DNA from: Pedobacter sp. BS3
GTDB lineage: Bacteria > Bacteroidota > Bacteroidia > Sphingobacteriales > Sphingobacteriaceae
Direction: 5' to 3'
DNA: 64,000 nt
Assembly (NCBI RefSeq): GCF_008274585.1
Contig: NZ_VTRT01000002.1
Coordinates: 558,001 to 622,000 of the forward strand
This document shows, piece by piece, positions 10,589 to 25,025 of the stretch. A program made the position numbers and the translations under genes. The notes under the pieces are model-generated. The model was not told where the DNA came from. It saw nothing but the letters and a program-made list of their open reading frames with translations, and ran no database searches. Numbering within the stretch: the first letter of the stretch is position 1; every line of letters starts with the position of its first letter.

Positions 10589-11809
10589 TTATGGCATAAC
10601 AATTACCCTCCTTCCCTTGCCGAAAGCATTACCGGCCTCAATTTTAAAGTGTACAACACCCGTTATTTCCATATTTTTCAGCAGTTCAGTAATATCTTCT
10701 GAGCGTGATATCTTGGCATAAAAGGCCTTATTGCTTACATCACCCTGGTAAACCACATCCACATTATACCAGCGACTAATTTGTTCCATAATGCTTTTGA
10801 TATCTTCATCATGAAAAACAAAGTAGCCGTTTTTCCAGGCAACAGCGGCTTCTATATCGGCAGGTTCGGCTTTAAAATTTCCTTCAGGTTGTCTGATACC
10901 CGACTGTCCGGGTTTCAACATAAGCTCGTAGCCTGCACTTTTCAATTTTACCGATCCTTCAAGCAGCGTAGTGGTTACCCTGCTGTTGTAAGCGTTCACG
11001 TTAAAATGCGTACCTAAAACCTCTATTTCCTGGTTGGCTGTAGTTACAATAAATGGAATCCGGGCCTCTCCCCGACCCTCTCCTAAGGAAAGGGAGTGTT
11101 TCCCCCTTTGGGGGATTAAGGGGGCCTTGGCTACTTCAAAGTAAGCTTCGCCCGTTAGCTCTACCCTGCGTTCTTTACCCGTAAATTTGGCTGGAAAACG
11201 GAGCGACGATGCTGAGTTCAACCAGACCTTTGTACCATCTGATAACACCAGTTGATATTCGCCGCCGCGGGGAACGGTGAGGGTATTGCGAGCCACTCCC
11301 CCCGCCCTCTCCGAGGGAGAGGGAGCCTGGGTTCCCGTTACATAAGCCAGTTGTCCACTTGCCTGCTTGCTGATTTTGGCGCCAGCCTGTTCTGCCAATA
11401 TACCGTTAGCGGCATCGGTCAGGCTGATCTTTCTGCCATCGCCAAGCGTAAGCACTGCCTTGCTGCTACCCGGAACAATGGCAGCTGTTTGTTGTAGCTT
11501 CGTTACCGGGACTGGAACATCGTGAAAATGGAAATACAAGCCAAAGCAAAGTGCAATGAGTATCACTGCTGCCGCAAGCGGTAATTTATACCATAACCAA
11601 ATAGTATCGGGACGTTTTTTGATACGGTTCATTAAGCGGGTATATATCCGGTTAATAACAACCTGCTCATCACCAAGCTGATCCGTATCCCAATCCGCCT
11701 TATCTAAAGAAAAATCGTCCCGGTACTCTTCGAGCAATCTTCTTTCCTGTTCCGTACAGTCACCGGCAGCACATTTTTCGTACAATAAAACGTATTCTTC
11801 TCGCGTCAT
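10589..11809 (-). CDS. FecR family anti-sigma factor carrying two in-frame palindromic repeat inserts
   Basis: 406 residues from the ATG at 11809 (MTREEYVLLYEKCAAG); a GTG 45 bp upstream also keeps the frame open but adds a sequence unlike the family. Order: N-terminal cytoplasmic helices that bind the sigma factor, one membrane segment (LAAAVILIALCFGLYFHF), FecR domain (NTLTVPRGGEYQLVLSDGT, LTGEAYFEV, IEVLGTHFNVNAY), and a C-terminal DUF4974 domain that receives the signal from the SusC STN domain. Two segments are foreign to the family: APSPSERAGGVA and a stretch of about 20 residues containing KHSLSLGEGRGEA. Both are encoded by CCCTCTCC-type palindromes. Gap to susC is 124 bp; the sigma gene is divergent. 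Confidence 0.9.
   Translation of the reverse strand: MTREEYVLLYEKCAAGDCTEQERRLLEEYRDDFSLDKADWDTDQLGDEQVVINRIYTRLMNRIKKRPDTIWLWYKLPLAAAVILIALCFGLYFHFHDVPVPVTKLQQTAAIVPGSSKAVLTLGDGRKISLTDAANGILAEQAGAKISKQASGQLAYVTGTQAPSPSERAGGVARNTLTVPRGGEYQLVLSDGTKVWLNSASSLRFPAKFTGKERRVELTGEAYFEVAKAPLIPQRGKHSLSLGEGRGEARIPFIVTTANQEIEVLGTHFNVNAYNSRVTTTLLEGSVKLKSAGYELMLKPGQSGIRQPEGNFKAEPADIEAAVAWKNGYFVFHDEDIKSIMEQISRWYNVDVVYQGDVSNKAFYAKISRSEDITELLKNMEITGVVHFKIEAGNAFGKGRRVIVMP
11076..11114. repeat. In-frame palindromic repeat inside fecR, copy 1
   Basis: CCCTCTCC (11076-11083), 3-base loop, GGAAAGGG (11087-11094), followed by a second hairpin CCCCC-ttt-GGGGG (11102-11114). Read on the coding strand it gives residues such as SLSLGEGRGEA between the FecR motifs EVAK and IPFIV, which are adjacent in ordinary family members as I know them. 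Confidence 0.8.
11305..11323. repeat. In-frame palindromic repeat inside fecR, copy 2
   Basis: CCCTCTCC and GGAGAGGG form a perfect 8 bp stem around the loop gag. It encodes part of APSPSERAGG in the loop before the NTLTVPRGGEY motif of the FecR domain. Reading frame is preserved. Confidence 0.8.
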
Positions 11810-11905
11810 GATATAATTGGTTATGTGTATAGTACCTGTTTCCGGGAGGCACACACATACTTTTAAAAATATTTTTGATTATTTTTTTTAAGCCCCTAAA
11901 AGCTG

Positions 11906-17388: not shown

Positions 17389-18537
17389 TTACTTATCCTG
17401 CACACACCGGAAGCCAAGGTGTTCCATGCCACTGTCCTCCGTGCTCTTCATCCTTCTGGCAACACGGTATCCTGAACAATAGCTGTCATTACATAAGAAT
17501 GATCCACCCCGGATCACCCGCTTAATGGCATAAGGCTCCTGCGGGTCAAAACTCTTATCCGGCCCTTTCGGATTCTTTACTCCTGCCGGGTTATTGATAG
17601 TGGAGTAATACTGGTAATTGTACAGGTCTGAACACCATTCCCATACATTACCGGCCATATCATACAGCTTGTATCCGTTCGGGGAAAATGATTTTACCGG
17701 TGCGGCATAAAAGAATTTATCCCGCAAGGTGTTTTTGGATGGAAATGTGCCCTGCCAGGTATTGGCTTTGACCTTACCCTGGTCTATCGGTTCATTTCCC
17801 CAGGGATAAATATTATCGCTTAAGCCGCCTCGTGCCGCCCACTCCCATTCGGCTTCGGTTGGCAGCCGTTTGCCTGCCCATTTGCAATAGGCCTGGGCAT
17901 CGTACCAGGAGATGTGCACTACCGGGTAATTCTCTTTACCCACAATGGAGCTGCCCGGCCCGTGCGGGTGCTTCCAATCGGCTCCTTTTTTCCATTCCCA
18001 CCACTGGCTGTAATCGTTCAGGTCTACATCGTGCTTGGCCTGCACAAACACCAGCGATGCCGGAACCAGCATGCTTTCGTCCGGTTTGGGTGTTCCGGGA
18101 GGTAATTGTTTCTTGATTTCATTCCAGTCGGGTTTTTGCTCGGCGGTAGTTACATAACCGGTTGCTTTTACAAAAGCGGCGAACTGGGCGTTGGTTACCT
18201 CGGTCTGATCCATCCAGAAACCATCTACGCTTACTTTATGCTTGGGGTATTCGTCTTCGGCTGCCTGCTTGTTATCGCCACCCATCATAAAGGTTCCGCC
18301 ATCAATCCATACCATACCGGTATGGCTGGTGTCGATACCTGAGGCAATGTCACCACCGGGTTTCACCTTGGTTGTCCCGAAACGGGAAGGAATATTGGAT
18401 TCACAGCAAATGGCGGTTTTGCCTTTTAGTTTTGCGGCGCCGGTATCGGCTGATGCCTGTTTATTGCCGGATTGCTGATTACACGAACTAATTATACCGG
18501 CCAGTATAACCGGAACTATGAATTGGGTCTTGATCAT
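17389..18537 (-). CDS. Formylglycine-generating enzyme (FGE/SUMF1 family), lipoprotein
   Basis: 382 residues from the ATG at 18537 (MIKTQFIVPVILAGIISSC, lipobox SSC). The frame runs on upstream to 18693 through an 18-bp tandem repeat that would give an implausible Cys/Pro/Asn-rich tail, so that part is rejected. The FGE-sulfatase fold is complete (GGTFMMGG, ISWYDAQAYCKWAGKRLPTEAEWEWAARGG, MAGNVWEWCSD). The two active-site cysteines are present as Cys349 and Cys354 in GGSFLCNDSYCSGYRVA, with the same spacing as human SUMF1 Cys336/Cys341, and the protein ends LGFRCVQDK. It should oxidise the Cys of CxPxR motifs in sulfatases to formylglycine; two such sulfatases are encoded directly upstream. 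Confidence 0.92.
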   Translation of the reverse strand: MIKTQFIVPVILAGIISSCNQQSGNKQASADTGAAKLKGKTAICCESNIPSRFGTTKVKPGGDIASGIDTSHTGMVWIDGGTFMMGGDNKQAAEDEYPKHKVSVDGFWMDQTEVTNAQFAAFVKATGYVTTAEQKPDWNEIKKQLPPGTPKPDESMLVPASLVFVQAKHDVDLNDYSQWWEWKKGADWKHPHGPGSSIVGKENYPVVHISWYDAQAYCKWAGKRLPTEAEWEWAARGGLSDNIYPWGNEPIDQGKVKANTWQGTFPSKNTLRDKFFYAAPVKSFSPNGYKLYDMAGNVWEWCSDLYNYQYYSTINNPAGVKNPKGPDKSFDPQEPYAIKRVIRGGSFLCNDSYCSGYRVARRMKSTEDSGMEHLGFRCVQDK

Positions 18538-18548
18538 TTTTGTTAATA

Positions 18549-18656
18549 GATTACACGGATATTGAAGATTACACAGATATTGAAGATTACACGGATACTT
18601 GGGATTACACAGATAGTTAGGATTACACAGATGTGGAGGATTACACGGATTAATTG
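18549..18656. repeat. 18-bp-period tandem repeat (GATTACACRGAT core), six units
   Basis: The 12-base core GATTACACRGAT starts at 18549, 18567, 18585, 18603, 18621 and 18639, exactly every 18 bp, with variable 6-base spacers. It ends 12 bp from the FGE start codon. Constant period and very short spacers rule out a CRISPR array. A TACTTTT/ACTTTTAACT-type tract follows at 18670-18703. Confidence 0.9.
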
Positions 18657-22052: not shown

Positions 22053-25025
22053 TCAAACTACAATATTCACAATGCGGCCTTTAACAAAAATCACTTTCTT
22101 CGGCGTTTTTCCATCCAGGTAACGCTGCACATCGGCATTAGCCAGTACTTGTTTTTCAGCTTCGGCCTGGTCAATGGTCAACGATAAATTCAGGTTCATT
22201 TTAGTTTTACCGTTAATGGAAACGGGATAGGCAAATTCATCCTCAACCAAATAATCCGGGTTAAATTGCGGGTAGGCAGCATACGAAAGTGTACCTTTTT
22301 CGTGTCCCAGTAAAGCCCATAGCTCTTCGGTAATGTGCGGTGCATACGGCGAAAGCACGATAGTCAGCGGCTCCAGAATAGCCCGTTTATTACATTTCAA
22401 GTCAGTAAGCTCATTCACGCAAATCATGAAGCTGGATACCGAGGTATTAAACGAAAAACGCTCAACATCATCCTGTACTTTCTGAATAATTTTATGCAGC
22501 GATTTCAATTCGGCTTTAGTTGGCTCCGCGTCAGAAACGCTGAAGTTAAACTGGTCATCGTGAAACAGCTTCCAGAACTTACGCAGGAATTTAAATACAC
22601 CTTCTATACCGTTGGTATTCCAGGGCTTGCTTTGCTCCAGCGGACCAAGGAACATTTCGTACATGCGCAAGGTATCGGCTCCGTAACGTTCAATAATGTC
22701 ATCCGGGTTAACCACGTTAAACTTCGATTTGGACATCTTCTCTACTTCATGCCCACAGATATATTTACCATTTTCGAGTATAAATTCTGCATCTTTAAAA
22801 TCAGATCTGAACTTGCGGAATTTTTCAATATCCAGCATGTCGTTCTCTACAATATTCACATCCACATGAATAGCTGATGTTTGATACTGCGAGCGCAAAC
22901 CATACGACACAAAGGTGTTGGTTCCCTTACCTTCCGCATCAATAACACGGTACACAAAGTTGCTTCGCCCCTGTATCATGCCCTGGTTTATCAGCTTTTT
23001 GAACGGTTCTTCTTCAACCACATAACCAAGGTCTTTCAAAAACTTGTTCCAGAAACGGCTGTACAACAGGTGACCGGTGGCGTGTTCAGAACCACCGATG
23101 TATAAATCAACGTCTTTCCAGTAAGCAATGGCTTCTTTACCGGCAAATGCAGCTTCATTAGTAGCATCCATATAACGGTACCAGTACCAGCTTGAACCCG
23201 CCCAGCCCGGCATGGTGCTCAGCTCATAATCATAGGCCTCACCTAAATCCTCTCCGGAGGAGAGGACTTTTTCACTGGAAGGCCGATATTTCCAACCCAC
23301 AGCACGACCCAACGGAGGTTCGCCCGTTTCTGTCGGCAGGTATTTGTCTACTTCGGGTAACAATAAAGGCAGGTCTTTTTCTTCAATCAGGTGTGGTAAC
23401 CCATCCTTAAAATATACAGGAACAGGCTCGCCCCAGTAGCGCTGACGCCCGAAAATAGCATCACGCATCCGGTAGTTTACCTTTGCCCTGCCGGCGCCAA
23501 GCTCTTCAAGCTTTTGTATCAGGGCGGGAATGGCTTCCTGGTATGTCATGCCGTTAATAAAGCCGGAATTAATATAACGACCTTCTTTCGTAGCATCGGC
23601 CTGATTGTCGATATCTTTCTGCGCATCCAGTATCGGGATAACCGGCAAATCAAAATGTTTGGCAAACAGGTAATCCCGCTGGTCGCCGGAAGGCACGGCC
23701 ATTACCGCTCCTGTTCCATAACCTGCCAGCACATAATCGGCAATCCATACCGGTACTTTTTCACCGCTTAGGGGATTAATAGCGTAGCTCCCGGTAAAAG
23801 CCCCCGACACCGTTTTGGTATCGGCCATGCGGTCAAGCTCCGATTTCTTTTTGGTTTGTGCAATATACGCATCAATAGCAGCTTTTTGCTCCGGCGTGGT
23901 TAACTGCGTTACCAATTCATGCTCAGGCGCAATCACCAGGAATGAAACGCCGAAAATGGTATCTACACGGGTGGTGAAGACTTCAATAGCCTCATCCCAA
24001 CCCTCTCCAAAGGAGAGGGAGCTGTTATCTGCTAAATCAGCCTCCTGTTCATTTAATTTCCTGTCCGGAGCATTGTCGAGTGCTTGTTCTTTTCGCTCAA
24101 TCGCCTTGTCTATATTATCTAAACTTTCTTCAACGAGGGAGGCCGGGGCAAGGGGGAATTTCACCATCGCCCCCACACTTTTGCCAATCCAGTTGCGCTG
24201 CATTTCCTTTAAGGGCTCAGGCCAGTCTATGGTGTCCAACCCGTTTAACAAACGCTCGGCATAAGCCGTAATACGCATGCTCCACTGCATCATTTTTTTC
24301 TGCTCAACCGGGTAGCCACCCCGTTCAGAAAAACCATCCTTCACCTCATCATTAGCCAGTACGGTTCCCAACGCCGGACACCAATTCACCGTACTTTCCT
24401 TTAAATACGTCAGCCGGTATTTTAACAACAATTGCTGCTGCGTATGTTCATCATACGCGTTCCACTCACCAGCAGTAAATATGGGTGTATCCTCATCGGC
24501 CACAGCCTTAACTGTTGCATTACCCTCACGCGAAAACCGTTCTATAAGCGTCGTAACAGGTTCGGCCTTATCGGTTTCCAGGTTATACCAGGAATTGAAT
24601 AGCTGCATGAATATCCATTGCGTCCATTTATAATACGAAGGGTCGCTGGTACGCACCTCACGACTCCAGTCAAACGAAAAACCAATATTATCCAGTTGCT
24701 CGCGGTAACGCCGGATATTTGCCGCCGTAGTTACCGCCGGGTGCTGACCGGTTTGAATGGCGTACTGCTCTGCCGGAAGGCCAAACGAGTCATACCCCAT
24801 CGGATGCAACACATTAAATCCTTTCAGCCGCTTGTAACGAGCAAAAATATCAGAAGCAATGTAGCCCAGCGGATGCCCTACGTGCAAACCCGCTCCCGAA
24901 GGGTACGGAAACATATCCAACACATAATATTTCGGCTTATCCGATTGGTTATCTGCTTTAAAGGTGTGATTCTCGGCCCAGAATTGCTGCCACTTCTTCT
25001 CAATATCTTTGAATTGGTAATCCAT
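22053..25025 (-). CDS. leuS: Leucyl-tRNA synthetase with two in-frame repeat-derived insertions
   Basis: 990 residues from the ATG at 25025 ([13 protein letters not shown]); the frame extends 36 bp to a TTG that is not needed. HIGH-type motif is HVGH (residues 48-51) in [19 protein letters not shown] is at 763-767. The CP1 editing domain contains [11 protein letters not shown] and the leucine-specific region is of Bacteroidota type ([17 protein letters not shown]). Two segments do not belong to the family: about residues 291-345 (contains [13 protein letters not shown]-like sequence, in CP1 before the threonine-rich editing motif) and about 581-597 ([15 protein letters not shown], before [13 protein letters not shown]). 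Both contain CCTCTCC/GGAGAGG palindromes. It is essential for charging tRNA-Leu, so the inserts must be tolerated. Confidence 0.97.
23235..23285. repeat. In-frame palindromic repeat insert in leuS (small)
   Basis: Perfect palindrome TCCTCTCC-gga-GGAGAGGA at 23248-23266 inside a 51 bp segment encoding a Ser/Glu/Gly-rich stretch between WKY and [11 protein letters not shown]. The segment is a multiple of three and keeps the frame. Confidence 0.75.
23991..24155. repeat. In-frame palindromic repeat insert in leuS (large)
   Basis: About 165 bp (55 codons) inside the CP1 editing domain. One end carries CCCTCTCC-aaa-GGAGAGGG (24001-24019); the other end has GAGGGAGGCCGGGGCAAGGG (about 24135-24154). 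Encoded residues are charged and helical in the middle ([12 protein letters not shown]). Frame is preserved. Exact borders are estimated against the usual family sequence from memory. Confidence 0.7.

Follow-up and report, generated by a model that had tools for sequence, protein, structure and literature searches.

Probable remnants of palindrome-ended DUF559 nuclease cassettes inserted in frame in the leucyl-tRNA synthetase gene of Pedobacter sp. BS3

Results

Inserts in leuS of the window

The leucyl-tRNA synthetase (LeuRS) gene, leuS, in a stretch of 64,000 nucleotides of Pedobacter sp. BS3 (contig NZ_VTRT01000002.1; the whole stretch is called the window) carried two palindrome-bearing inserts in one open frame (Table 1). 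The arrangement is real and unusual, and from the comparisons below both inserts appear to be nuclease-less remnants, within an essential enzyme, of cassettes in which a DUF559 endonuclease domain lies between palindromic ends. They probably derive from homing-endonuclease-like cassettes that do not splice and persist as in-frame domains. Sequence comparison showed the anatomy of the cassette, shared sites, a likely nuclease relic and repeated entry of one site, and also a low ratio of nonsynonymous to synonymous substitution rates (dN/dS) in nuclease inserts and one recent transfer with a gradient in its flanks. Translation and tolerance of the insert, cutting, homing, a role for the hairpins and movement of solo palindromes are inferred.

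The leuS product matched the Pfam families LeuRS editing domain, tRNA-synt_1 and Anticodon_1. An earlier note on this DNA had described two palindrome-built segments inserted in frame in leuS, with the catalytic motifs HVGH and KMSKS intact; both palindromes were found, the reading frame was uninterrupted across both inserts, and both motifs were present. Each palindrome was 19 nucleotides in length, and the two shared a frame, read as LSFGEG and LSSGED. Ends similar to the terminal palindrome of insert 1 were seen in loci L055, L086 and L095.

Insert 1 can be read as a decayed palindrome-DUF559-palindrome cassette because the stretch between its ends aligned with a DUF559 C-terminus. With the DUF559 C-terminus of L203, from a Mucilaginibacter metagenome-assembled genome, the local alignment score was 55, a value that none of 200 shuffles attained (maximum 53). 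The putative relic was tied to DUF559 by local alignment alone, with no Pfam match of the window LeuRS to DUF559, and it lacked the part of the domain with the motif D..E.DG..H. Insert 2 can be read as one end of such a cassette.

leuS in relatives

Fifty-eight leuS loci from a search of 60 genomes were aligned, some of them cut by contig ends; 57 were readable at each site and 56 at both (L078 and L090 at one site each). In leuS of the window, site 1 spanned 72 amino acids, compared with 24-26 in 39 of 57 readable loci, a net difference of about 46-48 codons; site 2 spanned 46 amino acids, compared with 32 in 40 of 57 readable loci, which makes a net 14 codons. The inserts were thus somewhat smaller than the approximately 55 and 17 codons given in the earlier note. 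Site 1 was short (18-28 amino acids) in 44 of 57 readable loci, including L090, whose 24 amino acids represent a cassette truncated by the contig end, and site 2 was short (26-34 amino acids) in 45 of 57. Loops were short at both sites in 35 of the 56 loci readable at both, and an ordinary feature of the LeuRS family was rejected. In G001, of the same genus, site 2 was plain (L057) and site 1 measured 27 amino acids. The segments are not shared by all relatives and are insertions, as had been supposed.

On reading of the alignments, 11 of the 58 loci held such an element at either site or at both (L054, L055, L062, L084, L085, L086, L088, L090, L093, L095 and L099; the palindrome of L093 was imperfect). 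G033 (L055) had the element at site 1 only, with site 2 plain.

At site 2 of L092 (G021) there was a different insert of about 130 amino acids, which resembled the REase family PF18741 only weakly and fell under the cut-off (E = 0.007); this site may be open to several nuclease types. A palindrome-coded insert (CCCCCTCCTTTGGAGGGGG) was found near residue 27 of leuS in L102 (G043), a third, N-terminal place.

Nuclease domains at the same leuS sites

Six of the 11 element-bearing loci held an in-frame DUF559 (Vsr-like) endonuclease domain, three at site 1 (L090, L095 and L099; leuS of L090 ends at the contig edge after the domain) and three at site 2 (L084, L085 and L088). All five inserts of relatives tested matched PF04480 (103-121 bits, E from 1e-29 to 2e-35; curated cut-off 20.6 bits). 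The consensus of the cassette was AGCCTCACCCC-NN-CCCTCTCC-NNN-GGAGAGGG on the left, followed by the nuclease, and CCTCTCC-NNN-GGAGAGG-NTTNGGGTGAGGCT on its right, with variants. L086 carried two-ended, nuclease-less miniatures at both sites. Between L084 and L085, dN/dS was 0.07 in the insert and 0.025 in the remaining leuS; the insert value is as expected if the insert is translated.

A profile search of PDB with the nuclease returned 3hrl (5e-29) and 3r3p, 'Mobile intron protein' (7.7e-5), presumably I-Bth0305I. An AlphaFold2 model of a Daejeonella LeuRS-DUF559 protein (L200; 27-row alignment) had a mean predicted local distance difference test score (pLDDT) of 82 and a predicted template modelling score (pTM) of 0.70. 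It placed an alpha/beta region at approximately 316-428, set between two LeuRS strands. Foldseek ranked LeuRS structures highest against it (E = 1e-69), with a TM-score of 0.64 normalised by query length. The peptides coded by the palindromes may be flexible linkers, because the segments bordering the modelled alpha/beta region (295-310 and 435-447) had pLDDT below 50.

DUF559 embedded in other proteins

A genome collection was scanned with five leuS DUF559 copies, and the 80 named loci were the best 80 of 546, ranked by likeness to the leuS copies, which biases the proportions of host genes. With copies of identical DNA merged first, the named and earlier loci gave 139 distinct DUF559 copies; some partial DUF559 matches, not retrieved or below the length filter, lie outside this number. 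Seventy-one of the 139 were embedded, with more than 80 amino acids of open frame on each side; one further copy, at a contig start, brings the embedded copies to 72. A second DUF559 match in L184, with no motif and a very long branch, is probably false and was kept in the 139 and the 72.

A palindrome-DUF559-palindrome arrangement in one open frame occurred mostly in proteins of Bacteroidota. Classified by the motif after the domain, the hosts were LeuRS at site 1 (28) and site 2 (5), IleRS (6), ValRS (1), MetH (8, two sites), RecG (6), RecJ (2), SpoIIE-like proteins (2), methylmalonyl-CoA mutase (3), HsdR (1), N-terminal fusions of HisF (4) and others (10). Pfam matches of 15 embedded proteins were consistent with these labels; among the others, Pfam indicated a UvrA-like protein, a DegT aminotransferase and a CoA-transferase, as well as more hosts of the MetH, IleRS-like, LeuRS and mutase kinds.

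The leuS-derived DUF559 query matched 120 of 295 genomes of the class. Among the 150 matches listed, 64 of 67 above 125 bits and 12 of 83 below 125 bits lay in frames of at least 350 codons. The leuS-like subfamily thus appears to be mostly embedded, and more distant copies mostly in short frames; the survey describes the subfamily near the leuS copies because the query was built from them. The motif D..E.DG..H, with catalytic residues of the PD-(D/E)XK type, was present in 71 of 72 embedded and in 47 of 47 short free copies.

Ends of the cassettes

Within 100 nucleotides of the DUF559 domain, hairpins (stem of 7 bp or longer, loop of 3-6 nucleotides) were present on the left of 52 of 71 and on the right of 49 of 72 embedded copies (12 of 337 control pieces), and on the left of 19 of 47 and the right of 13 of 45 short free copies (12 of 197 control pieces). 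Embedded copies had stems on both sides in 42 of 71 cases and on one side in 17. Base pairing recurred while the letters differed, because the embedded stems had 40 (left) and 44 (right) different sequences. Compared as inverted repeats, the two flanks of one copy scored above the 99th percentile of random spots in 88 of 133 cases; the corresponding counts were 40 of 397 for cross-paired flanks and 4 of 577 for random spots.

Mobility and age of the inserts

The DUF559 tree had 139 rows and 115 columns, with 34 of 136 inner branches open. Host labels taken together were as clustered on the tree in 0 of 200 shuffles. Counting gains and losses alike, leuS site 1 needed 13 label changes, at least 7 of which were forced by starred branches; a single origin of the site 1 inserts was therefore unsupported. 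Site 2 needed 4 changes (at least 3 forced by starred branches). The recG inserts formed one clade.

Twenty-nine pairs of inserts in the same gene were compared, and in the five closest synonymous divergence was smaller in the insert than in the host: 0.09 vs 0.63 in leuS (L226/L223), 0.19 vs 0.48 in recG, 0.30 vs 0.63 in recJ, 0.36 vs 0.49 in metH and 0.17 vs 0.81 in SpoIIE paralogues of G043. In L223/L226, synonymous changes numbered 6 of 67 in the insert and 347 of 554 in the host (Fisher p = 6e-18). Outward from the insert, synonymous divergence in this pair was 0.27, 0.78 and 0.90 in the left flank and 0.22, 0.41, 0.50, 0.59 and 0.77 in the right flank, the first bin on each side containing part of the element. 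Such a pattern is what homing with co-conversion would leave.

The two SpoIIE-like frames of G043 (L147 and L152) had very diverged hosts and near-identical DUF559 inserts.

The palindrome in this genome and in others

When up to two mismatches were allowed, the window contained the palindrome core CCTCTCCNNNGGAGAGG 4 times, against 0.04 expected (0 of 100 shuffles reached 4). The 4.81-Mb genome held 26 exact copies and 39 with up to one mismatch; the backwards control gave 0 in both. Exact copies were found in 20 of 60 genomes searched, 1 to 64 in each, and the control matched 1 genome; G001 had no exact copy.

The search of the whole genome suggested by the earlier note found 39 places with up to one mismatch. 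In-frame copies lay in leuS, pheS, argC, four FecR-like genes and, with two mismatches, an OTCase-like gene; by hand count, 10 of the 39 lay inside these genes. In-frame placement was compared with palindrome-free relatives for leuS (twice), pheS and argC. The palindrome-coded loop of PheS (5 amino acids over the commonest form) occurred only in this genome among 24 aligned sequences (25 loci retrieved), several relatives carrying other longer loops, and that of ArgC (10 amino acids) only in this genome among 15 aligned (17 retrieved). The four FecR-like frames, one of them in the window, and the OTCase-like gene close to argC (two mismatches) were assigned by reading frame and Pfam only.

The argC and OTCase-like genes, each with its in-frame palindrome, lie together in L041 (own genome, C25:24300-31800). 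In the FecR-like paralogues L028, L030 and L040 and the frame of the window, some in-frame palindromes stand beside a second palindrome, such as CCCCCTTTGGGGG.

The own genome had three full DUF559 genes, all with other GC-rich ends, and two further matches that were weak and partial. One full DUF559 domain (C1:1057413-1057775, L142) lay in a MetH-like frame of 1442 codons, with different palindromic ends.

Table 1. Positions of leuS, its inserts and other features in the window
Feature	Position	Strand	Remarks
leuS (leucyl-tRNA synthetase)	22053..25025	minus	Open reading frame; Pfam and PDB LeuRS matches; holds two putative in-frame element remnants
leuS start codon (ATG)	25023-25025	minus	
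leuS reference	22056-25022		Without first Met; query for Pfam, locus and PDB comparisons
Insert 1 (site 1)	23989..24156, borders approximate	minus	CP1 editing domain, directly before IEVFTTR
Outer arm of insert 1 palindrome	23989-24000		Gene-strand reading TTGGGATGAGGC
Terminal palindrome of insert 1	24001..24019	.	CCCTCTCC-AAA-GGAGAGGG
Stretch resembling DUF559 C-terminus	24057..24119	minus	21 residues, in insert 1; read as relic
Possible decayed opposite end of insert 1 cassette	24129..24156	minus	Gene strand CCCCCTTGCCCCGGCCTCCCTCGTTGAA; weak, by-eye comparison with left ends of L086 and L095
Insert 2 (site 2)	23235..23284, inner border approximate	minus	Directly before a 14-residue stretch; single element end
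Outer arm of insert 2 palindrome	23235-23247		
Palindrome of insert 2	23248..23266	.	TCCTCTCC-GGA-GGAGAGGA
FecR-like frame	10592-11878	minus	Stop to stop
Palindrome copy	11077..11093	.	One mismatch; inside FecR-like frame
Second palindrome copy	11306..11322	.	Inside same FecR-like frame
Tandem 18-base repeats	18531-18656		GATTACACGGATATTGAA type

Discussion

The proposed element would be a mobile cassette with a DUF559 (Vsr-like) endonuclease between inverted, hairpin-forming palindromes, each a pyrimidine arm followed by a purine arm. It would insert in frame, so that the host protein would carry it as a translated loop domain; the cassette often lacks an obvious start codon, and the palindrome-coded peptides would act as flexible linkers with which the enzyme works in the absence of protein or RNA splicing. 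The nuclease would cut alleles that do not have the cassette, repair would copy the cassette in (homing), and an occasional jump would take it to a new gene. Loss of the nuclease would leave the palindromic ends as in-frame scars, and the palindromes scattered in the genome would be nuclease-less derivatives. That these elements make up an undescribed selfish class, in which one DUF559 subfamily lives as in-frame, hairpin-bordered domains of essential enzymes, with neither intron nor intein, moves between genes and leaves scars, is put forward tentatively, doubt being slightly the greater.

Several results weigh against derivation of the inserts from homing cassettes. No palindrome copy of the own genome (up to one mismatch) adjoined a DUF559 gene, 12 of 71 embedded copies had no stem of 7 bp or more on either side, and a Met shortly before or at the start of the domain was present in 28 of 72 embedded copies, compared with 37 of 47 short free copies. 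Longer loops without this element occurred at leuS site 1 (L062, L063, L064, L066, L071, L079, L087 and L089) and site 2 (L089, L092, L103, L104 and L105). For site 2 the clustering was weak, 33 of 500 shuffles needing as few changes on the tree. The 29 pairs were chosen by insert identity of at least 70%, which favours young inserts, and the remaining 24, more divergent pairs had no consistent difference between insert and host. The flank gradient was seen in one pair of four tested: in recG and recJ the insert was younger (Fisher p = 8e-6 and 8e-7), yet there was little gradient, and in metH, also with little gradient, the difference was not significant (Fisher p = 0.057). In L223/L226 itself, divergence dropped again at the far left (0.75, then 0.44 at -300..-200 and 0.30 at -400..-300, 21 codons), and general recombination could make one such tract.

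The predominance of palindromes over nucleases in the own genome (39 with up to one mismatch vs three full DUF559 genes, none adjoining) and the miniatures of L086 at both leuS sites would also be obtained with a stand-alone miniature inverted-repeat transposable element (MITE) or a Rickettsia-type palindromic element that inserts in frame, DUF559 genes just travelling between its copies; Rickettsia palindromic elements act this way according to passages of PMC10969869. This explanation is unlikely, as stems flank DUF559 in many genes with at least 40 different sequences, the two ends of a copy usually match, and insert 1 of the window holds a DUF559-like stretch; if DUF559 merely travelled along, a single nuclease family would not be expected as the recurrent cargo, other cargo not having been searched for. 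Repetitive extragenic palindromes (REP) are dispersed palindromes too, and three Y1_Tnp matches were found in the genome, as would be needed if the palindromes were moved by an own-genome REP-associated tyrosine transposase (RAYT, a Y1 tyrosine transposase). None of the three Y1_Tnp stretches (3.2-3.3 kb) held the CCTCTCC palindrome at up to three mismatches, relatives not having been searched for Y1_Tnp; RAYT-driven movement was unsupported in the own genome and is very improbable.

An origin as normal variable loops of aminoacyl-tRNA synthetases, or as simple repeats that grew neutrally, would agree with the longer leuS loops of some genomes without the element, with the other inverted repeats that fill the site 1 loop in L071 and L079, and with the short tandem repeat present at site 1 of L062. 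Such loops would hardly be filled by the same palindrome as occurs genome-wide, with nuclease domains at the same sites, and with the palindrome-coded loop in this genome only among 24 PheS and 15 ArgC; the palindrome counts against controls speak against chance, and this origin is given very little credence. Hairpins with a homing-type nuclease resemble a bypass cassette, as in phage T4 gene 60 and MobA, and the inserts might be bypassed by ribosomes at the hairpins or else removed as intein or intron. Removal or bypass is highly doubtful, since the reading frames run through the inserts in phase and without a stop, and one DUF559 insert of leuS has a dN/dS of about 0.07. At the gathering score, Rfam gave 0 intron matches in 8 leuS loci, and Pfam scans of LeuRS from the window and of 15 embedded proteins gave no intein family or splicing (Hint) domain; a group I or II intron was rejected for these loci and an intein for these proteins.

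The familiar homing nucleases reside in introns and inteins, which splice away. In the cassette reading, the nucleases appear as permanent parts of essential proteins, made tolerable by palindrome-coded linkers, which suggests that selfish nucleases are able to live in essential proteins without splicing. In-frame position beside conserved motifs of essential enzymes is shared with inteins that carry homing endonucleases; unlike these, the elements had no splicing domain in the scans, and the protein appears to retain the insert. In the phage T4 MobA and gene 60 cassette, a homing endonuclease and a hairpin also lie at a host gene, but the ribosome skips the insert there, whereas the frame is continuous here. 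Among the Vsr-like or EDxHD homing endonucleases, the PDB entry 3r3p is related in sequence to the nuclease part; that enzyme belongs to an intron, whereas the present nuclease shares the reading frame of its host protein, with no intron found.

A DUF559 gene is assigned to the EDxHD homing family in a passage of PMC9403480, which cites another paper. The Caulobacter endonuclease VsrA has the same DUF559 domain, but the relevant passages of PMC12907096 present it as Vsr-like and link it to cytosine methylation; it is not presented there as an insert within another protein. Rickettsia palindromic elements are described, in the passages of PMC10969869 that concern them, as dispersed repeats inserted in frame in unrelated genes. 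The likeness to them drawn by the earlier note held in form (dispersed in the genome, in frame in unrelated genes), but it missed the nuclease, insert 1 being more than a palindrome; the phylum is different, and some versions here carry DUF559, whereas those passages of PMC10969869 name no nuclease partner. Overall the element resembles a non-splicing homing endonuclease element and, after loss of the nuclease, a Rickettsia palindromic element.

In the open-licence literature of PMC, nothing was found that joins DUF559 with inverted repeats or a tRNA synthetase, in-frame palindromic insertion with Rickettsia palindromic elements and Bacteroidetes, palindromic elements with a homing endonuclease, or in-frame endonuclease insertion with leucyl-tRNA synthetase; no DUF559 paper was titled on in-frame insertion, matches to DUF559 with a palindromic repeat were judged unrelated, and among the listed matches on endonucleases, mobile elements and Bacteroidetes none contained DUF559. 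The arrangement may still be published. If the cassette reading is true, in-frame palindromic repeats would have a testable origin, the passages of PMC10969869 giving no means of spread. A repeat similar to the Rickettsia elements would have an autonomous partner, which suggests seeking one for the Rickettsia elements themselves, and database sequences of tRNA synthetases and metabolic enzymes could contain a mobile nuclease domain.

Other observations

The window also had a run of tandem 18-base repeats (Table 1). Near position 189705 of contig C25 of the own genome (L335), a Y1 transposase match lay beside other repeated palindromes (TTGCGATGCAATCGCAA), with which it possibly forms a REP/RAYT pair.

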